A DNA stretch of 64,000 nt, taken from positions 1-64,000 of the forward strand of contig JAPKMR010000017.1 in assembly GCA_026645815.1 (NCBI GenBank), given 5' to 3'. Shown here in pieces: positions 311-37,568 of the stretch (positions within the stretch are counted from its first letter, which is position 1; the number at the start of each line of letters is the position of its first letter). The DNA comes from Anaerolineae bacterium (lineage in GTDB: Bacteria > Chloroflexota > Anaerolineae > B4-G1 > SLSP01). Under the pieces are notes generated by a model. The model ran no database searches. It saw only the letters and a program-made list of their open reading frames with translations, and was not told the DNA's origin. Both the position numbers and the translations under genes were made by a program.

Positions 311-2128
311 CTATGCCGTACCGACCGCCTGGTAAACGCCATATTGCTGCTCCAGCGACCGGCGGAATTGCCGCGTGTACAGATCATAGTAAGCGCCGCG
401 CTGCTGAATCAGTTCACGATGCGTGCCCACTTCCATGATATGCCCGTTCTGGATCACCAGAATGCGGTCCGCGCTCTTGATAGTCGAGAGACGATGCGCA
501 ATCACCACACTCGTGCGACCCGCCATCACCGCTGCCATTCCTTGCTGAATGTGCGCCTCGGTCAGTGTGTCCACCGAACTCGTCGCCTCATCCATGATGA
601 GCACATCCGGGTCTGCCAGCACCGCTCGCGCCAGGCTGATGAGCTGCTTCTGTCCGACAGAGAGCAATACACCGCCCTCGCCCACCTGCTCCTCATAGCC
701 ATGCTCCATCTCAGAAATGAAATCGTGCGCACGCGCGATGCGCGCCGCCTCTTCCACCTCAGCATCCGTTGCATCAAGCCGTCCGTAGCGGATGTTCTCC
801 CGCAACGTGCCGGAGAACAGGTGCGGAGTCTGCAGCACCATTCCAATGTGCGACTGAATCCCATGCTGGGTCAGCTCCGTATAGTCTTTACCATCAATCA
901 GAATTCTCCCAGCAGTCGGTTCGTAGAAACGGCACAGCAGGTTGACGATAGTAGATTTGCCGCCGCCCGTCGGTCCGACAATGGCGATGTGCTCACCCGG
1001 CGCGATGTGCAGGTTGAAGTGCTCCAACACCGCCTTGCCAGCCTCGTAGTGAAAGCTCACATTCTCAAAGGCAATGCTGCCGCGAATGTTGCCCGGTTCT
1101 CCCGCCCCCTCACGGTCCAGCACATCAGGCTTCGAGTCAATGAGCGAGAACACCCGCTCCGCAGAAGCCACGCTGTGTTGCATCTCAGCATACACCCGCG
1201 CCAGGTCTTGCAGGGGCCACATCATGAACGTCAGGTAGGAAAGGAAAGCCTGAATCCCACCGATGGTCAGGCCTGCGATCCGTACCTGGAAACCACCGTA
1301 CCAGATGATGGCGCCGACTCCCAATGCGCCGACCAGCTGCACCAACGGCAGAAACAGCGCCGAGAGCCATGCGACGCGGTAAGCGGCGCGGTACATGTTC
1401 GATGTCTTCTCCCCAAACTCGTTCAGGTTCTGCTTCTCGCGAACCAGCGCCTTCACCACGCGAACCCCGGAGATATTCTCGTTGTATGCTCCCGTGATAA
1501 TCGAGTTCAACTTACGCATCTGACGGTATTCCGTGAGAATGCGCTTTTTGAAGTAGAAGGTGATCACACCCATGATGGGCAGAATCACGGCAACGACAAG
1601 CGCCAGTTTCCAGTTGATGATCGCCATGAAAATCATGGAGGTGATGATGTTCAACACCGCCCACGTCGAATCCACGATCCCCCAGGTCACCAGCTGCGCA
1701 ATGCGCTCAGAGTCGGAGGTTACGCGCGACATGATCCAACCCACCGGCGTTCGGTCAAAGTACGAGAACGACAGTTCCTGTAAGTGATTGAAGGCTTTGC
1801 GACGCATATCATACTGCACTCGCTCGCCCAAGACGCCCGCCAAGTAGATGAAGACAAACACCGTTATCGCCTGCAACAGCGCCATCCCGCCATACATCGT
1901 CAGCAGCTGAAGCAGATGGGGCACGTTACCCACGGCGATGCCTTCGTCAATGATGCGCTTGCTCAGGTAGGTGAAGTACGAATCCATGATCGAGGTGCCG
2001 GCAATCATCACCACAAAGCCCACCACCCAGTGCCAGTAGGGCTTCACCTGTTCGAGAATGCGCAGCATCACTTTGCCGTTGAGCTGCGCCGTGAAATCTT
2101 GTTCTTGAAATTCATCGTAGTCAGACAT
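311..2128 (-). CDS. ABC exporter half-transporter (subunit with degenerate signature motif)
   Basis: This 605-residue protein has an N-terminal ABC exporter membrane domain (about residues 30-325, six helices) and a C-terminal ATPase. Visible ATPase motifs are Walker A GPTGGGKST (385-393), signature LSVGQ instead of LSGGQ (489-493), Walker B VLIMDE with the catalytic Glu (about 509-514) and H-loop IAHRLST (His544). It follows the gene at 2317-4239, and together they should form one heterodimeric exporter. Its Walker B is canonical and its signature is not, whereas the partner shows the reverse. That is the pattern of BmrCD/TM287-288-type exporters with one catalytic and one degenerate ATP site. 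The linked acetyltransferases and leader peptide suggest drug efflux; the substrate is not deducible. Gap 2129-2316 holds only a GAAGACCGG/CCGGTCTTC inverted repeat. Confidence 0.95.
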   Translation of the reverse strand: MSDYDEFQEQDFTAQLNGKVMLRILEQVKPYWHWVVGFVVMIAGTSIMDSYFTYLSKRIIDEGIAVGNVPHLLQLLTMYGGMALLQAITVFVFIYLAGVLGERVQYDMRRKAFNHLQELSFSYFDRTPVGWIMSRVTSDSERIAQLVTWGIVDSTWAVLNIITSMIFMAIINWKLALVVAVILPIMGVITFYFKKRILTEYRQMRKLNSIITGAYNENISGVRVVKALVREKQNLNEFGEKTSNMYRAAYRVAWLSALFLPLVQLVGALGVGAIIWYGGFQVRIAGLTIGGIQAFLSYLTFMMWPLQDLARVYAEMQHSVASAERVFSLIDSKPDVLDREGAGEPGNIRGSIAFENVSFHYEAGKAVLEHFNLHIAPGEHIAIVGPTGGGKSTIVNLLCRFYEPTAGRILIDGKDYTELTQHGIQSHIGMVLQTPHLFSGTLRENIRYGRLDATDAEVEEAARIARAHDFISEMEHGYEEQVGEGGVLLSVGQKQLISLARAVLADPDVLIMDEATSSVDTLTEAHIQQGMAAVMAGRTSVVIAHRLSTIKSADRILVIQNGHIMEVGTHRELIQQRGAYYDLYTRQFRRSLEQQYGVYQAVGTA

Positions 2129-2316: not shown

Positions 2317-4239
2317 TCATGCTGCCAGCGCTACTTCTTTCTCCACTTCTTCTTCGATCCGCGCCTGAATCTGGTAAATCTCCCGGTAGAGACCATCCTC
2401 CTGGATGAGATCATCGTGCACGCCCTGCTGGACGATGCGCCCGCGGTCGAGCACCAGAATCCAATCCGCTCGCATCACCGTCTGAATGCGGTGTGCAATC
2501 ACGAAGGTGGTCCGGTTCTCCATCAACCGCTCCAGGGCTGCCTCGATCTGCATTTCGGTATCGGTATCCACCGAAGATGTAGCGTCGTCCATCACCAGGA
2601 TGCGCGGGTTCTTGAGCAACGTCCGGGCAATCGCCACACGCTGCCGCTGCCCGCCGGAAAGGGTGACGCCTTTCTCCCCAACGAGGGTGTCATAGCCCTG
2701 CGGGAAGGAGAGAATCACATCGTGAATCGCCGCTGCTTGTGCCGCCGCAATCACTTCGGCTTCCGTCACCTCGCGCCCGGTGCCATAGGCAATGTTGTCA
2801 CGAATCGAGCGTGAGAACAGGAACGGTTCCTGCTCTACAATGCCGATCTGCTGCCGCAACAGCACACGCGAGTACTCAGTGAGTTCCTTACCATCCAGGG
2901 TGATGTGCCCACTCTGATAATCATAGAAACGCAGCAACAGGTTGACGATACTGGTCTTGCCCGAACCGGTCGAACCGAGCAACGCGATGGTCTGACCCGG
3001 CTCAACGCTGAAGGAGATATCGTGAAGCACCTCAACCAGCTTAGGCTCTGCCGACGGACCCTTGCCATTACCCTTGGAGGTGTCCTCTTGGGGTACTACG
3101 GGCTGATAGGCGAAACTTACATGGTCGAAGACCAGATTTCCTTGCATCAAGCTTTCCCCTGTGGGGGCAAGTCCACCTTCGATATCCTCACGGTCCTCGG
3201 CGATGATATCCGCCACACGTCCAAAGGAGACCAGACCTCGGGATACATCCACGATCAAGCGTCCCAGGTTGCGCAAGGGCCAGACGATCCAGATGATCAT
3301 GCCGGTGATTGCCAGGTATGTGCCCAACGTGAGCTCGCCCCTTGCCGCCATCACCGCCCCCGTTCCGATCACGATCAGAGTCTGCGCCGAGCACAGAATA
3401 TCAGAAAGGGGCCAGTAGAGCGAGTGCATCATGGTCAGCTTCTTGCCGCGCTTGTACTTCTCGTAGTTTTGCTCCTCGAACTTGTCAATCTCATAGCGCT
3501 GGCGGGCGAAAGCCTTCACCACGCGCACCCCCATCAGGTTTTCCTGAAGCGTCGTCGAAAGTGTGGCTTCCTGTTCCTGATAAGCTTCATACGCCTTTGA
3601 TACACGCCCGAAGAAGAGATACGACATGATGATCACGGCGGGCATAACGATGATTGAAAGCCAGGCCAGGTTGCTGCTCAACCGCATCATCATGCTGAAG
3701 TTGATCGCAAAGAGCGCCACGATTCGACCGATGCCGATGGCTTGATCGGCATAGAAGCGCCGCACGGCGTCCACGTCCGAAGTCGCCCGCGAGATCAGCT
3801 CGCCAGTCTTGGCATGATCGTGATAGGTAAACGACAGCCGTTGAATGTGATCATAGAGATAGTTGCGCAAACGCAACGTGATACCCTCGGAGGCTCTGGC
3901 TGACCAGACGCCCCGCAGGTACGAAAACAACCCTTCTGCGCCGGCTAAGCCGACGAAGCCGAATGCCAACCAGGGCAACCACTCCAGGTGCATACCTTCG
4001 GTCAGCACGTCATCTACGACAACCTGCAAGAGCATGTAGGTAGCAGTTCGTGCTGCCGCCCCTAGCGCCACGCTGATCAACGCGCCCAGGTAAACCCAGT
4101 GATAGCCCGTCATCATGCGCCACAAGCCCACCGCGCGATTCTTGTTGACAGTCTGCTTCAGGTCAAAAGCCAGCTCTTTCATGGTTCGTTGTTCCAGTTT
4201 ATCACTCGTTAGTTTCAGTTGTAGTGTGTCCTGTGCCAT
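2317..4239 (-). CDS. ABC exporter half-transporter (subunit with Asp in place of the Walker B Glu)
   Basis: This is a 640-residue ABC exporter half-molecule: membrane domain at about residues 45-345, ATPase at 370-620. Motifs: Walker A GSTGSGKT (422-429), canonical signature LSGGQ (527-531), Walker B ILVMDD with Asp552 where the catalytic Glu is expected, and H-loop His583. The non-canonical Walker B would face the LSVGQ of the downstream subunit, giving one dead site. The other site would combine this LSGGQ with the partner's Glu. A 20-residue insert precedes the ATPase (about 380-400). The start at 4239 is supported by GGAAGGAG 13 bases upstream and overlaps the end of the GNAT gene by 38 bases, so translation is probably coupled. 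Met20 (4182) is an alternative start without an obvious binding site. Confidence 0.95.
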   Translation of the reverse strand: MAQDTLQLKLTSDKLEQRTMKELAFDLKQTVNKNRAVGLWRMMTGYHWVYLGALISVALGAAARTATYMLLQVVVDDVLTEGMHLEWLPWLAFGFVGLAGAEGLFSYLRGVWSARASEGITLRLRNYLYDHIQRLSFTYHDHAKTGELISRATSDVDAVRRFYADQAIGIGRIVALFAINFSMMMRLSSNLAWLSIIVMPAVIIMSYLFFGRVSKAYEAYQEQEATLSTTLQENLMGVRVVKAFARQRYEIDKFEEQNYEKYKRGKKLTMMHSLYWPLSDILCSAQTLIVIGTGAVMAARGELTLGTYLAITGMIIWIVWPLRNLGRLIVDVSRGLVSFGRVADIIAEDREDIEGGLAPTGESLMQGNLVFDHVSFAYQPVVPQEDTSKGNGKGPSAEPKLVEVLHDISFSVEPGQTIALLGSTGSGKTSIVNLLLRFYDYQSGHITLDGKELTEYSRVLLRQQIGIVEQEPFLFSRSIRDNIAYGTGREVTEAEVIAAAQAAAIHDVILSFPQGYDTLVGEKGVTLSGGQRQRVAIARTLLKNPRILVMDDATSSVDTDTEMQIEAALERLMENRTTFVIAHRIQTVMRADWILVLDRGRIVQQGVHDDLIQEDGLYREIYQIQARIEEEVEKEVALAA

Positions 4240-5314
4240 TGCCGTTGTTCTTCTCCTTCCCAGGGAGCAATCCCTGAGGACTTTCCCATACAGGTTTGCG
4301 ATAGGTCACAAACTCTTTGACCGTGACAAAGCCCATGCTCTCATACAGCTGTCGGGCGCCGTTGGGGTTCTGGGCATCTACGCCCAATGCCGCCTCGGCC
4401 ATTCCCTGTGCTTTGAGCACCTCAAAGCTGCGCGCGATCAATGCCCGTGCAAGCCCCAGTCTGCGCCAGGGACGACGTACACAGATGGTTTCCGTGTAGC
4501 CCCGCAGTCGCCCGAATACTGTATTCTCCCTATCATCAATGAAGTTGAGAATCATACCGGCTACTTCATCCCCAGCCCAGGCTACCTGCCACAACTCCGG
4601 TGTGAAGATGGGCATTTCCTGCCACTCGCGCAAGTGCTTGAGGCCCCATTCCTCATCGTTATAGCCCCAGTGATCGCGAAAGGCTTCCTGCGCCGCTGCC
4701 CAGATCGTCTCGATTTGCTCTGGTTGCACCGGACGCACCTCCAATCCTGGCGGCAGAGGAATCTGGGGAATATCCTCCAGATTCGCGCGCACCATGGAAT
4801 AGCCATAACGCACCGGTTGGTAACACTCTGCCAACAACAAGCGCGTCCAATCCCGTTCCGTGTTACTAGCCCAAGATTCGAACATCTGAATGGGCGCCTC
4901 GGCTCTCTGTGCCAGGGCAATTCGGCGCAAATGTGCCTCGTTATAGCGAAGCATCGCTTGCCGGATGCCGGATTCACGCCAGTCCGGAACCACCTGCGCA
5001 AAGTGCGCATAGGTCCGCGTTCCGTCATCAAATTGCATCCACCACATTCGCCCGTAGCCAACGACGTACCCGTCAATTTGAGCAAAGAGCATATCCCGGT
5101 AGGGGTCGCAGTTGCTCAGGTAACGATACTGGCGGGCGATATCGTCTTCCGATTCTACCCATTCAAGGTTATCGCACTCCCGCGCCTGGCGGAAGACTTC
5201 CACCATCGCTGGATAATCACTCTCGCCACGAAAACCGCGAAAGACCAACCCTGCAATCGCTGGCGTATCCGCCACCGCAATCGTATCAGTTTGTACTGCT
5301 AATGTCTCTAACAT
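4202..5314 (-). CDS. Tandem-GNAT acetyltransferase
   Basis: A 370-residue protein with two GNAT folds. The N-terminal one looks degenerate. The C-terminal one carries the acetyl-CoA loop as RRPWRRLGLARALI, followed by the usual ALGVDAQNPNGARQLYESMGF ending. The start was placed at ATG 5314, after GAGGG at a 7-base spacing; the longer frame to 5395 would overlap the upstream stop. It sits second in the operon driven from 6721 and resembles the gene before it in layout, so the two probably arose by duplication. GNAT enzymes of this type acetylate small amines or antibiotics. Here the linkage to an efflux pump suggests detoxification, which is inference. Confidence 0.88.
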   Translation of the reverse strand: MLETLAVQTDTIAVADTPAIAGLVFRGFRGESDYPAMVEVFRQARECDNLEWVESEDDIARQYRYLSNCDPYRDMLFAQIDGYVVGYGRMWWMQFDDGTRTYAHFAQVVPDWRESGIRQAMLRYNEAHLRRIALAQRAEAPIQMFESWASNTERDWTRLLLAECYQPVRYGYSMVRANLEDIPQIPLPPGLEVRPVQPEQIETIWAAAQEAFRDHWGYNDEEWGLKHLREWQEMPIFTPELWQVAWAGDEVAGMILNFIDDRENTVFGRLRGYTETICVRRPWRRLGLARALIARSFEVLKAQGMAEAALGVDAQNPNGARQLYESMGFVTVKEFVTYRKPVWESPQGLLPGKEKNNGNGTGHTTTETNE

Positions 5315-5391
5315 GTTCGCACCCTCAAAGTGTGTAACGATTTCCGGAAAGGGGCTTACGACATAGGAAGCCCCTTTCCGCGCTGCAGAAC

Positions 5392-6426
5392 TCACGCGCC
5401 CAGGTCGAGCGTTGCCAGGCTCTCCCCCGGACGCAATTCCTTCTCAAAATTGACATATTGCCGGACCACCTTCATGCCAGCCCGCTCGTAGAGCCGGGTC
5501 GCCCCAGTGAGGCTTTGGGCATCCACACCCAAGCCGACCCGCTGGCGTCCTCGACGCTGAAACTCGCGGAAACTGTGGTGCAGCAGCGCCAATCCCAGCC
5601 CTTGATGTCGCCAGGGGCGCAGCACACCCAATGTGCCGACCCAACCCATCTCAGGGTCCTCCGGAAGATAGCTATGGCACAATGACATCCCGGCAATTTC
5701 CGAGCCAGCCATTGCCACAAACCAGAGCGAAGGATCAAACTCCGGATCATGGTCAATGTGGTGCATCCACTGACGGAAGTCTTCCTCCTCAGGACGCTGC
5801 ACATAGCCCCAATGATCCTTGAAGGCAACCGAAATCGCTCGAATGAGCGCCCGTTCCTCCACGCCGCGCACAAAGGGGCGAATCACAATCCCCTCCGGCA
5901 ACACAGGATCCGGCACGGGACCATCCAGCTCAATTACCATCCGCGAGAAGTAGCGCGCCATGGAGAAACCCTGGATTTCGAACAACTCCTGCGCCAGCAA
6001 ATCGGTGCTCAGAGTCCCTTGCGTCAAGACAACCTGGGTTCCCTCCGGCGCCCGTGAAATCCGTTGGCGCGCGGTGTTTTCAACCCAGCGCAGTAAAGAG
6101 CTCCCAATACCCTGTCCGCGATACTGTGGGTCTACCCGCCCCCAGCAGTACAGGCGCACATAAGGCGCGGTCGCCCAAAACTCAACGTAGCCCACCAGGG
6201 TCCCATCGGAGGCGAAGACCAACCGGGTGTCCTGAGCCAGATCAAAGCCCGGGGATTGCCATTCGTGATCGAGATCCTCGGCCTTGAATTCAGTGTGCCC
6301 AAGCTGCTCCAAAGCACAGCGGTTGAACAAGTCTGCGGCGCTAGCCACATCCCCAAAAGTTGCCGGTCGCACGCTGAAAGACGCTGAAATATCCATAAAT
6401 TCACTTTCACGCTCACTCGTTTTCAT
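5392..6426 (-). CDS. Tandem-GNAT acetyltransferase, first gene of the exporter operon
   Basis: A 344-residue protein with two GNAT domains. The first (about residues 20-165) has an acetyl-CoA loop, DPQYRGQGIGSSLL. The second (about 185-320) has RPWRHQGLGLALL and the typical LGVDAQSLTGATRLYERAGM. Both loops look intact, so both halves may bind acetyl-CoA. The start at ATG 6426 follows GGAGGGGAATT; upstream in-frame Met codons lack a binding site and fall inside the attenuator. The stop lies 77 bases before the next GNAT start. Its substrate cannot be read from sequence. Confidence 0.88.
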   Translation of the reverse strand: MKTSERESEFMDISASFSVRPATFGDVASAADLFNRCALEQLGHTEFKAEDLDHEWQSPGFDLAQDTRLVFASDGTLVGYVEFWATAPYVRLYCWGRVDPQYRGQGIGSSLLRWVENTARQRISRAPEGTQVVLTQGTLSTDLLAQELFEIQGFSMARYFSRMVIELDGPVPDPVLPEGIVIRPFVRGVEERALIRAISVAFKDHWGYVQRPEEEDFRQWMHHIDHDPEFDPSLWFVAMAGSEIAGMSLCHSYLPEDPEMGWVGTLGVLRPWRHQGLGLALLHHSFREFQRRGRQRVGLGVDAQSLTGATRLYERAGMKVVRQYVNFEKELRPGESLATLDLGA

Positions 6427-6461
6427 AATTCCCCTCCATCTAACTGCTCCACCGAACAAAA

Positions 6462-6547
6462 AGGCCGTGGATTGGACCCCCACGGCCTCAAAGAGGAATC
6501 AGAAACAAAAAAAAGGCCGTGGGTTTTGCAGTGACCCACGGCCTTTT
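6462..6547 (-). promoter_or_regulatory. Four-segment transcription attenuator (tandem terminators plus antiterminator)
   Basis: Read on the minus strand, a 14-bp perfect stem (6534-6547 with 6511-6524, 9-base loop) is followed by eight U. A second stem (6480-6488 with 6462-6470) is followed by five U. Both stems use the same GGCCGTGG sequence. Segment 2 (CCCACGGCCT) can therefore also pair perfectly over 10 bp with segment 3 (AGGCCGTGGG), which would disrupt both terminators. It lies between a leader ORF and the first acetyltransferase gene. The 1:2, 3:4 and alternative 2:3 pairing is the layout of trp-type attenuators. Confidence 0.8.
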
Positions 6548-6557
6548 GACATTCAGA

Positions 6558-6659
6558 TTATGTCAACCTTCCGACAGGCGCACTGCGACAAGGTGAGACA
6601 GCTGCGCTACCGAAAACGCGGCTCACCCGTGTCATGAAGAAGGTAAAATTGTTGGTCAC
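6558..6659 (-). CDS. Leader peptide (33 residues) of the acetyltransferase-exporter operon
   Basis: A GTG at 6659 follows AGGAG (6668-6672) at an 8-base spacing, and the frame is open to TAA at 6558-6560. The peptide begins MTNNFTFFMTRVSR, with three Phe in the first eight residues, and ends SAPVGRLT. The promoter at 6694-6721 would start RNA about 15 bases before its binding site. The stop codon is 10 bases before the first attenuator stem. A ribosome held near the end of this ORF would cover segment 1 and favour the antiterminator. No other protein coding is apparent here. It is too short for homology, so the call rests on position, binding site and attenuator. Confidence 0.65.
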   Translation of the reverse strand: MTNNFTFFMTRVSRVFGSAAVSPCRSAPVGRLT

Positions 6660-6693
6660 AGTGCTTACTCCTGATTAGCTTTGAACAGTAATT

Positions 6694-6721
6694 ATTATAC
6701 GCCCACCCCGAAAAATGTCAA
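6694..6721 (-). promoter_or_regulatory. Consensus sigma-70-type promoter of the exporter operon
   Basis: On the minus strand, TTGACA (6716-6721) and TATAAT (6694-6699) are separated by 16 bases. Both hexamers match the housekeeping consensus exactly. Expected RNA start is near 6687, giving a leader of about 260 bases before the acetyltransferase gene. Confidence 0.85.
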
Positions 6722-6737
6722 TAAGTAAAACAATGGG

Positions 6738-6853
6738 GCGTTTCAAAATGGGGGTGAAAATCTCAGGCGCTCCTACAGGGCGCAGGAGAAAGTTGATTTT
6801 TGACGGCGGAGCTTTGCTCCGCCGTCAAAAATCAATCAAAGGAAAGGTATTTG
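6738..6853 (+). repeat. ~117-bp intergenic hairpin element, copy A
   Basis: The copy runs from GCGTTTCAAAATGGGGGTGAAAATC, here written in part, to CAAAGGAAAGGTATTTG. It contains a perfect 20-bp stem with a 3-base loop (6793-6812 and 6816-6835). Related copies are at 26441-26557, 37463-37568 and, without the hairpin, 26938-27001. The rest of the gap to 7003 shows nothing I recognise. Confidence 0.85.
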
Positions 6854-7003: not shown

Positions 7004-7774
7004 GTGAAAATTGACCTCAATTGCGATATGGGTGAGAGCTTTGGACAGTATCATCTTGGCGATGATGCCGCCATGCTCGATATCATCACCTCCGCTAACA
7101 TTGCGTGTGGCTTGCATGCGGGCGACCCACTGGTGATGCGGGAGACTGTGACTAACGCTGCCCGTCGAGGCGTCGCCATCGGAGCGCATCCCGCTTATCC
7201 CGACTTGCAGGGCTTTGGACGGCGCAAGATGCAGATGTCGCCGGCAGAACTGGAAGCCTTTCTCATCTACCAACTGGGGGCGCTGGCGGGCTTCGCGCGG
7301 GCTGCGGGGACGCGACTCGAGCACGTTAAACCGCACGGGGCGCTGTACAATCAAGCTGTCAGCGACCCTGATATCGCCGCAGCTATCGCGCGAGCAGTAA
7401 TGGCCTTCGATCCGGCGCTCATTGTCGTTACCTTGCCCGAATCCGCGCTGCGACTTGCTGCGCTCGGCAGCGGGCTGCGGGTCGCGCTGGAAGGCTTTGC
7501 CGATCGTGCCTATCTGGCAAATGGCACATTGGCGCCCCGCAACCTCCGCGGGGCGGTCATCCATGATCCAGATGTGGCTGCTGCTCGCGCCATCCGCATG
7601 ATTGTGCAAGGGGAGGTTGAAACGCTCGAAGGCGCGGTGATTCCCTTGCGGGTGAATACTATTTGCGTTCACGGCGACACACCCGGCGCGGCGCAGATTG
7701 CCGCACACCTGCGCGAGGCGCTCGAAAGAGCGCAGGTCACACTCATGTCACTGAATAAGGTACTGGAAGGGTGA
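7004..7774 (+). CDS. pxpA: 5-oxoprolinase subunit PxpA (LamB/YcsF family)
   Basis: A 256-residue LamB/YcsF protein with the family opening MKIDLNCDMGESFG and the conserved ACGLHAGDP, GAHPAYPD and HVKPHGALYN segments. In bacteria PxpA works with PxpB and PxpC to open 5-oxoproline to glutamate with ATP, removing a spontaneous damage product of glutamine and glutamate; it acts in the cytoplasm. Start is GTG 7004 after AAGGGGA. The gene overlaps pxpB by 4 bases, and pxpC follows, so the complete enzyme is encoded here as one operon. Length is normal. Confidence 0.95.
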   Translation: MKIDLNCDMGESFGQYHLGDDAAMLDIITSANIACGLHAGDPLVMRETVTNAARRGVAIGAHPAYPDLQGFGRRKMQMSPAELEAFLIYQLGALAGFARAAGTRLEHVKPHGALYNQAVSDPDIAAAIARAVMAFDPALIVVTLPESALRLAALGSGLRVALEGFADRAYLANGTLAPRNLRGAVIHDPDVAAARAIRMIVQGEVETLEGAVIPLRVNTICVHGDTPGAAQIAAHLREALERAQVTLMSLNKVLEG

Positions 7775-8424
7775 GTCGTTATCCCCGCATTCTGCCCGTC
7801 GGTGATAGTGCCTTCACGGTTGAATTTGGAGCCGTCATCGAAGAACGGCTTGTGGCGCAGGTGCAGGACTTCGAAGCCGTGTTGGGCGCGCACCCTATCC
7901 CGGGGATTCGCGAAACAGTACCCAGCTATTGCGCCCTATTGGTCGTCTACGATCCGCAAAATTGCCCCGCGGCAGTGATGCGAAGGGCACTGGAGCAAGC
8001 GTTGACCCTAATGACAGGCGGCGTTCATGCGGCAGGGCGATTGATTGAGATTCCTGTGCATTACGGCGCCGTTGACGGTCCTGACTTGCAGGATGTTGCC
8101 GGCTTTCACCAGTTATCTTCCGAAGAGGTCATCGCTCTCCACACCGCCCCGACCTATCGCGTGGCGATGTTGGGATTCGCGCCCGGATTTGCTTATCTAC
8201 TGGGGCTAGATCCACGGCTGGCTACATCCCGGTTGGCAACGCCACGCACCCATGTCGCGCCCGGCAGCGTTGGTATCGCGGGCAATCAGACGGGCGTGTA
8301 TGCGCTCAGCACCCCCGGCGGTTGGCGCATCATCGGGCGCACGCCATTGGTGCTCTTCGACCCGACGCGCCCGGAGCCTTTTCTAGTCCGCGCGGGGGAT
8401 TCCGTGCGCTTCGTGCAAGCATGA
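7771..8424 (+). CDS. pxpB: 5-oxoprolinase subunit PxpB (KipI-like)
   Basis: A 217-residue AHS1/KipI family protein. Visible family blocks are LPVGDSAFTVEFG at the start, GIRETVPSYCALLVVYDP, the HYG turn, and the strongly conserved MLGFAPGFAYLLGLD with PGSVGIAGNQTGVY and TPGGWRIIGRTPL near the end. Translation starts at GTG 7771, inside the last codons of pxpA. It partners with PxpC to form the ATP-dependent carboxyltransferase-like part of 5-oxoprolinase. The older name, inhibitor of KinA, comes from Bacillus; the neighbours support the metabolic role. Confidence 0.95.
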   Translation: MSRYPRILPVGDSAFTVEFGAVIEERLVAQVQDFEAVLGAHPIPGIRETVPSYCALLVVYDPQNCPAAVMRRALEQALTLMTGGVHAAGRLIEIPVHYGAVDGPDLQDVAGFHQLSSEEVIALHTAPTYRVAMLGFAPGFAYLLGLDPRLATSRLATPRTHVAPGSVGIAGNQTGVYALSTPGGWRIIGRTPLVLFDPTRPEPFLVRAGDSVRFVQA

Positions 8425-8431
8425 GGCGAGG

Positions 8432-9406
8432 ATGGTAAGTTCAGACCTGATGGAGATTCTCGATCCGGGCTTTCTGAGCACGGTGCAGGATGCCGGGCGT
8501 TATGGATGGCTGCGCTACGGCGTGCCCCCTTCCGGACCACTGGACGCGGCGGCATTTCAAGCCGCCAATGCCCTCGTCGAGAATGCGCCAGCTGCTGCCG
8601 GAATGGAAATTACCTGGACCGGACCGGCGCTGCGTATCACACGGGATGCACTCATCGCCGTCTGCGGTGCGGACTTCGAACTGTGGGCAGGCCGGCGCCC
8701 AGTGCCGACCTGGCACAGCGTGGTCCTGCGCGCGGGAGAGGTACTGCGCTTTGGAACGCGCCGCAGCGGCGCCCGGGCTTATCTGGCAGTAGATGGCGGT
8801 ATCGCCTTACCCCCATATCTTGAGTCACAGGCGACCTATCTGCCCGGCGGCTTTGGCGGCATGGAGGGTCGCGCCTTGCGGGCGGGGGATCACCTGCCCC
8901 TGCACCGAAGCCAGCTCGATCCCTTTGCAGCAGCAGGCAAGTGCTGGTCCCTATCGCGGCGACCCGCTTACAGCGCCAAGCCGGTTCTGAGAGTGATTCT
9001 GGGGCCGCAGGCCGAAGCATTCACCCAAGAAGGGATAGCCGCTTTCCTGAGCAATGCCTATAGTCTTTCTGCCGCCTCAGATCGCATGGGAGCGCGCCTG
9101 CACGGGCCTGCCATCGCGCATGCCGGGCATGCCGGGCATGCCGGCACAGGGAGCAGCATCTCCGATGGGGTGATTGCCGGATGCATACAAGTTCCGCCGG
9201 ATGGACAGCCCATCATCATGCTGGCGGATCATCAGAGCACAGGGGGCTATCCCAAGATTGCCGTGGTGTTGCGGGCTGACTTGCCGTTGTTGGCGCAGCT
9301 GCTACCCGGAGACCAGATGCGCTTTCAGGCGCTCGATGCAGTAGCATCACGCAGGAGCATCACCTGGAACCGGGAGGTGATCTCTAATTCCCCGGCGCCT
9401 GCTTGA
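8432..9406 (+). CDS. pxpC: 5-oxoprolinase subunit PxpC (KipA-like)
   Basis: A 324-residue AHS2/KipA family protein with LDPGFLSTVQDAGRYG, GVPPSGPLD, YLAVDGGI and the C-terminal QVPPDGQPIIMLADHQSTGGYPKI block, written here in shortened form. It starts 7 bases after pxpB. An unusual in-frame triplication of GCCGGGCAT near 9117-9145 gives HAGHAGHAG inside the SDRMGARLHG...SSISDGV region. This is a local expansion in an otherwise ordinary protein and probably lies in a surface loop. Confidence 0.94.
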   Translation: MVSSDLMEILDPGFLSTVQDAGRYGWLRYGVPPSGPLDAAAFQAANALVENAPAAAGMEITWTGPALRITRDALIAVCGADFELWAGRRPVPTWHSVVLRAGEVLRFGTRRSGARAYLAVDGGIALPPYLESQATYLPGGFGGMEGRALRAGDHLPLHRSQLDPFAAAGKCWSLSRRPAYSAKPVLRVILGPQAEAFTQEGIAAFLSNAYSLSAASDRMGARLHGPAIAHAGHAGHAGTGSSISDGVIAGCIQVPPDGQPIIMLADHQSTGGYPKIAVVLRADLPLLAQLLPGDQMRFQALDAVASRRSITWNREVISNSPAPA

Positions 9407-37462: not shown

Positions 37463-37568
37463 GAGTTTCAAAACGGGGGTAAAAATCTCAAGCGCCCCTA
37501 CAGGGCGCAGGAGAAAATTGATTTTTGGCGGCGGGGCTTTGCCCCGCCGCCAAAAATCAATCAAAGGA
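37463..37568 (+). repeat. ~117-bp intergenic hairpin element, copy C
   Basis: GTTTCAAAACGGGGGT to TCAAAGGA. The stem is again perfect, with its own arm sequence (GGCGGCGGGGC and complement, 37518-37559 region). The right end is shorter than in copies A and B. Confidence 0.85.

Follow-up and report, generated by a model that had tools for sequence, protein, structure and literature searches.

The window, a 64,000-nucleotide stretch of an Anaerolineae (Chloroflexota) genome, was found to hold a predicted RNA switch and an operon that all lie on the minus strand and are read leftward. The promoter (6721-6694) is followed by a leader ORF (6659-6558), two terminators, T1 (6547-6511) and T2 (6489-6461), two genes for GNAT acetyltransferases and two for ABC exporter halves. 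The features are given below in the direction of reading, with the supporting evidence in brackets.

6694..6721, minus strand: promoter of leader and operon, TTGACA-16-TATAAT (-35 at 6721-6716, -10 at 6699-6694)
6668..6672, minus strand: Shine-Dalgarno AGGAG of the leader ORF, 8 nt before the start (sequence; conserved)
6558..6659, minus strand: leader ORF of 33 codons, peptide MTNNFTFFMTRVSRVFGSAAVSPCRSAPVGRLT and then stop (GTG start at 6659, stop codon 6560-6558)
6571..6586, minus strand: segment 0, GCAGTGCGCCTGTCGG, codons R-S-A-P-V-G, putative 5' antiterminator strand within the ORF (folding, swap test)
6546..6566, minus strand: hairpin H, TTGACAT-7-ATGTCAA, over the stop codon and inside the 0:1 helix (folding, 7 bp)
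6528..6541, minus strand: segment 1, CCGTGGGTCACTGC, T1 5' arm core and loop, partner of segment 0 (folding, swap test)
6511..6547, minus strand: terminator T1 (segments 1:2), then a U-tract (arms 6547-6534 and 6524-6511; covariation)
6461..6489, minus strand: terminator T2 (segments 3:4), with the same stem as T1, then a U-tract (arms 6489-6479 and 6471-6461)
5392..6429, minus strand: GNAT acetyltransferase 1, two GNAT domains (Pfam PF00583)
4202..5395, minus strand: GNAT acetyltransferase 2 (Pfam PF00583)
2317..4239, minus strand: ABC exporter half 1, membrane and ATPase domains (Pfam PF00664 and PF00005)
311..2128, minus strand: ABC exporter half 2, membrane and ATPase domains (Pfam PF00664 and PF00005)

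Every feature named in the original prediction, that is the promoter, the leader ORF, its ribosome binding site and two terminators built on the same stem, was present in the sequence. The site had been given as 6462-6721; its elements stood, but its start at 6462 did not, since an operon read leftward has 6721 as its upstream end. The promoter matched the consensus at 12 of 12 positions and was the sole perfect one in the 20 kb scanned. The block from the -35 element to T2 was near-invariant in two close relatives (L013 and L014), where the DNA upstream of the promoter could not be aligned. As judged from sequence comparison, the putative attenuator is conserved as a unit, far above chance.

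The leader peptide, used as a protein query, gave no second copy in its own genome. A scan with a motif pattern returned 13 matches forward and 14 in reverse as compared to 11 and 6 in the control; an RNA model was needed. An acetyltransferase query against the genome collection returned two near relatives only. Rfam 15 contained no family above the gathering threshold in the window, the best sub-threshold matches being far under the cut-off (for example SorY, 22.8 versus 111). A covariance model, R1, was built from 16 leaders using the T1 pairs only, and its E-values are rough. At E<=0.01, R1 matched 183 of 396 Anaerolineae genomes, and as many as 5 copies were counted in a genome. In a sample of 400 genomes from the phylum, 47 had a match at E<=0.001; 13 of these lay outside the Anaerolineae, and about half of the 12 inspected among these 13 matches looked like true copies. 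For analysis 90 copies were taken, and 40 further copies formed a held-out set.

The likely copies in Chloroflexota outside the Anaerolineae (L191, L193, L195, L196, L197 and L201) were followed by genes for an RsgA-like GTPase, ABC exporters, ABC-F proteins and a DrrA-like ATPase, as assigned by eye from translations. L192, L194, L198-L200 and L202, also from outside the Anaerolineae, were rejected as copies and look like plain terminators. The window's own genome carries a second copy (L203, 301-371, contig C31) with two terminators before an ABC-F gene, the leader ORF of which apparently stops just before segment 0.

An ORF preceded by a Shine-Dalgarno sequence and running into the element was found in 48 of 65 relatives, while shuffling gave an expectation of 1.8 and a maximum of 7. 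In 60 of 103 leaders the stop codon had one and the same spacing, and in the others it lay within a few codons of that position. More distant relatives of GNAT 1 kept a short leader ORF and the terminators, with an N-terminal part of the leader that was wholly different.

In T1, 10 of 11 pairs covaried across 91 sequences, and none of 500 shuffles reached the observed values. T2 was detected in 76 of 90 relatives by a threshold scan, a count which includes a few weak calls, and its stem tracked the T1 stem across copies (types GGCCGTGG, GCCACGGG, GCCGCAG and GCCGCGG). The 10-bp pairing 2:3, proposed from the window sequence, was confirmed, with the T1 3' arm CCCACGGCCT matching the T2 5' arm AGGCCGTGGG perfectly, and the pairing covaried across the family (swap test z -8.1; held-out set z -5.9). 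The evidence for 2:3 is slightly weaker than that for 0:1, as shared stems could also come from terminator duplication. The further claim, that 2:3 disrupts both terminators, held less well. Without 0:1, the formation of 2:3 frees segment 1 to pair with segment 4, making it unclear whether 2:3 alone would give release, whereas with 0:1 in place segment 4 is left single; 0:1 was ranked first for this reason.

Segment 0 lies in the final third of the leader ORF, at codons C-R-S-A-P, and its sequence is complementary to that of the T1 5' arm and loop. The original prediction had overlooked it, and on the grounds of covariation and predicted folding it is the decisive antiterminator strand. In the window the antiterminator pairs GCAGTG.GCCTG.CGG with CCG.TGGGT.CACTGC, enclosing hairpin H, and the predicted 0:1 fold has an energy of -27.0 kcal/mol. 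The arms of H co-vary in relatives as seen by eye (TTGAC/GTCAA, GGTTA/TAACC and TTACC/GGTAA). A swap test on 59 relatives, one per cluster at <72% identity, gave a mean of -18.8 kcal/mol for cognate 0:1 pairs and -15.3 kcal/mol for swapped ones, the former being 3.5 kcal/mol stronger (z -10.2; 0 of 20000 permutations), though permutation figures overstate the certainty as the relatives are not fully independent. Controls using a reversed partner or the neighbouring upstream leader stretch were flat, and the result was replicated in the 40 held-out copies (z -6.3). All six pair types were represented at the variable position preceding AGT (GC 16, CG 11, UA 10, UG 3, AU 2 and GU 1). Covariation and swap tests together supported mutually exclusive structures, 0:1 against 1:2 and 2:3 against 3:4.

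Computed folds of the window RNA were used to follow the order in which these structures appear. For RNA ends from 6534 to 6518, before T1 can form, 0:1 with H was the minimum-energy fold, and T1 overtook it only once most of the T1 3' arm had been transcribed. At the T1-loop stage 0:1 with H was the fold in 124 of 128 copies, as compared to 115.7 on average and 123 at most when T1 was swapped, a modest advantage since pairing between the consensus segments occurs in any case. The terminated state of the window RNA was the more stable one at equilibrium (-60.9 versus -54.2 kcal/mol), and read-through must thus be kinetic. Kinetic switching is also found in other attenuators. A local hairpin predicted in the window RNA can hold segment 0, so that untranslated RNA may partly terminate. 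With the footprint edge taken to lie 15 nt upstream of the P site, a ribosome at the stop codon was computed to mask about 70% of the segment-0 nucleotides that are paired.

We consider it highly probable that the locus encodes a ribosome-mediated transcription attenuator of five RNA segments, in which 0:1 with 2:3 would represent the ON state and 1:2 with 3:4 the OFF state. The ORF, T1, T2, the predicted pairings 0:1 and 2:3 and the fixed stop-codon spacing are all backed by comparative sequence. During normal translation the ribosome would trail RNA polymerase to the leader stop codon, where it would cover most of segment 0 and break hairpin H; with segment 0 masked, T1 and then T2 would form and the operon would be off. 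If a ribosome were delayed in the first half of the ORF, as a ribosome-targeting drug might do, segment 0 would be free to capture segment 1 once the T1 loop is transcribed. Segment 2 would then pair with segment 3, leaving segment 4 single, and RNA polymerase would read into the acetyltransferase and exporter genes. The coverage of 70% of segment 0 by a ribosome at the stop codon is the reason for assigning normal translation to OFF and an earlier hold-up to ON. Our inferences are that a drug acts as the trigger, that the response runs in this direction and that the competition is kinetic; the stalled ribosome is most likely the antibiotic sensor of the switch, and a ribosome-targeting drug would be its likely inducer.

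Macrolides, above all ketolides, are reported to stall ribosomes at motifs of the R/K-x-R/K type (PMC8298421). This motif was present in 18 of 55 leaders, against 6.1 expected from shuffled peptides (0 of 5000 shuffles reached the observed count), and in 7 of 28 held-out leaders, against 3.4 expected (p ~0.025). It clusters near residue 13, and a ribosome halted at the motif would leave a median gap of 21 nt to segment 0. R/K motifs at other spacings were not enriched, either in the family leaders or in the held-out set, which argues against plain basic composition as the cause. The window leader does not contain this macrolide-sensing +X+ motif and has R-V-S-R instead.

The direction of the switch had originally been predicted the other way round, with a ribosome stalled at the ORF end covering segment 1, allowing 2:3 to form and turning the operon on. 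The pairing 2:3 is indeed real and covaries, and T1 starts about 10 nt after the ORF. However, a late ribosome masks about 70% of segment 0 and would thus favour termination, leaving read-through to an early stall, and the conservation of 0:1 by covariation would be pointless if late stalling meant ON. With macrolide-arrest-like motifs also sitting early in the ORF, ON by an end-of-ORF stall appears improbable. An arrest peptide was also considered, as P-x-R-S-A-P-x-x-R is common to most leaders and the C-terminus PCRSAPxGR could act like RAPP/RAPG, in which case the peptide and not the RNA would be selected. Against this, 5 of 55 leaders (L078, L080, L125, L150 and L158), as well as L084, keep the RNA with segment 0 read in another frame, although some of these frame changes may stem from single-base errors in draft assemblies. 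Leader residues also vary where the RNA pairing varies. The arrest sequence itself (R-A-P-P or R-A-P-G) was not found, the leader having R-S-A-P in a frame that is not conserved. Selection on the peptide as the chief constraint was rejected on this lack of a conserved frame and we rate it as quite improbable; the resemblance of the shared C-terminus to an arrest peptide appears better explained by the RNA.

Amino-acid attenuation in the style of trp or his would have the Phe codons sense charged tRNA-Phe, and the window leader has four Phe among codons 5 to 16, a Phe-rich start that had been taken as a pointer to the inducer. This start was common only to near relatives and is thus not a general sensor, and Phe sensing was rejected with Phe not conserved in relatives. 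Among about 80 leaders there was no common codon run of the kind a trp or his attenuator needs, and the regulated genes encode transporters, acetyltransferases and ribosome-protection proteins rather than amino-acid enzymes, making sensing of tRNA-Phe extremely improbable. It could also be envisaged that two constitutive terminators merely insulate the operon and that the ORF is accidental, as both T1 and T2 are intrinsic terminators of an ordinary, strong kind. However, they sit between a perfect promoter and the first gene, and the ORF, its stop position and the 0:1 pairing are all conserved, so that simple insulation is very improbable. The five-segment attenuator with early stalling as the ON signal is therefore the reading we prefer.

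The drug-resistance context suggested for the window extended across the family, with ABC exporters, ABC-F proteins, GNATs, HAD hydrolases and MFS pumps behind the element. Raw counts for 83 first downstream genes were 35 ABC ATPases, at least 25 GNATs, 8 HAD proteins and 3 MFS proteins. The ABC ATPases comprised 15 of the exporter type and also included ABC-F proteins; four ABC-Fs exceeded the NCBI ribosome-protection cut-off.

The trp attenuator of Escherichia coli relies on mutually exclusive hairpins, and a ribosome at its leader stop codon masks the antiterminator strand. The switch proposed here would share both properties, whereas trp senses tryptophan via Trp codons and has one terminator. 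In bmrB-bmrCD of Bacillus subtilis, a heterodimeric ABC exporter is controlled by a short translated leader together with an intrinsic terminator and an antiterminator (PMC4191407). The parallel with this system, drawn in the original prediction, was similar in principle, the window having a leader-peptide attenuator before a GNAT-GNAT-ABC-ABC operon; impeded translation favours the antiterminator in bmrB as proposed here, and two exporter halves are present, a likeness taken from descriptions. In contrast, the one terminator of bmrB lies within the leader coding region (PMC4191407), while here the stop codon is followed by two terminators, and the antiterminator strand would be formed by the end of the ORF. 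The mef(E)/mel leader of Streptococcus pneumoniae, an 8-residue peptide (MTASMRLR) containing R-x-R followed by one terminator, likewise controls drug efflux by leader-peptide transcription attenuation (PMC4335068), and R-x-R is found in many family leaders; here, however, there is a two-terminator domino with a shared stem, and the window leader is without R-x-R. The vmlR leader of Bacillus subtilis also attenuates transcription before a resistance ABC-F acting against ribosome inhibitors; it adds translation attenuation and polymerase pausing (PMC9226507) and concerns a single gene, not a dispersed family.

The element is apparently an undescribed, widespread variant of ribosome-mediated transcription attenuation. 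Leader-peptide attenuators of resistance genes are, to our knowledge, mainly isolated examples, found in Firmicutes and a small number of other groups, and no description of such attenuators in Chloroflexota was found in the literature searched, subscription papers excepted. A single RNA architecture is shared here by 183 of 396 Anaerolineae genomes and by some further Chloroflexota. We incline slightly towards the view that a single five-segment 'domino' attenuator has spread across the Chloroflexota, where it would act as a shared sensor of translation inhibition and coordinate a dispersed resistance regulon. If so, the paired GNATs, HAD hydrolases and the RsgA-like GTPase would be candidate antibiotic-response genes, and the element could be used to recognise, from sequence, the genes that ribosome inhibition switches on in a large and hardly cultured phylum. 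The numerous natural variants make the mechanism directly testable through compensatory mutations, and the two-terminator domino offers a testable reason for keeping two terminators with the same stem.

Some further observations were made on individual copies and on the surroundings of the locus. In six copies (L082, L083, L093, L096, L097 and L159) a HAD-type hydrolase gene stands behind the element and is followed by another gene. In L157 the element precedes a leucyl-tRNA synthetase gene, an unusual target, for which slow translation might itself be the signal. An interspersed repeat of about 115 bp occurs at 6735-6850, directly upstream of the promoter, and at 37465-37568; it is MITE- or REP-like, contains a 20-bp perfect inverted repeat (6793-6835) and scored about 40 copies in its own genome at 84-92% identity. 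Divergent from the attenuated operon, on the plus strand at 7004-9406, lies a gene of the LamB/YcsF family (Pfam), and the two ORFs after it, as judged by eye from the ORF list, resemble the usual 5-oxoprolinase subunit partners.
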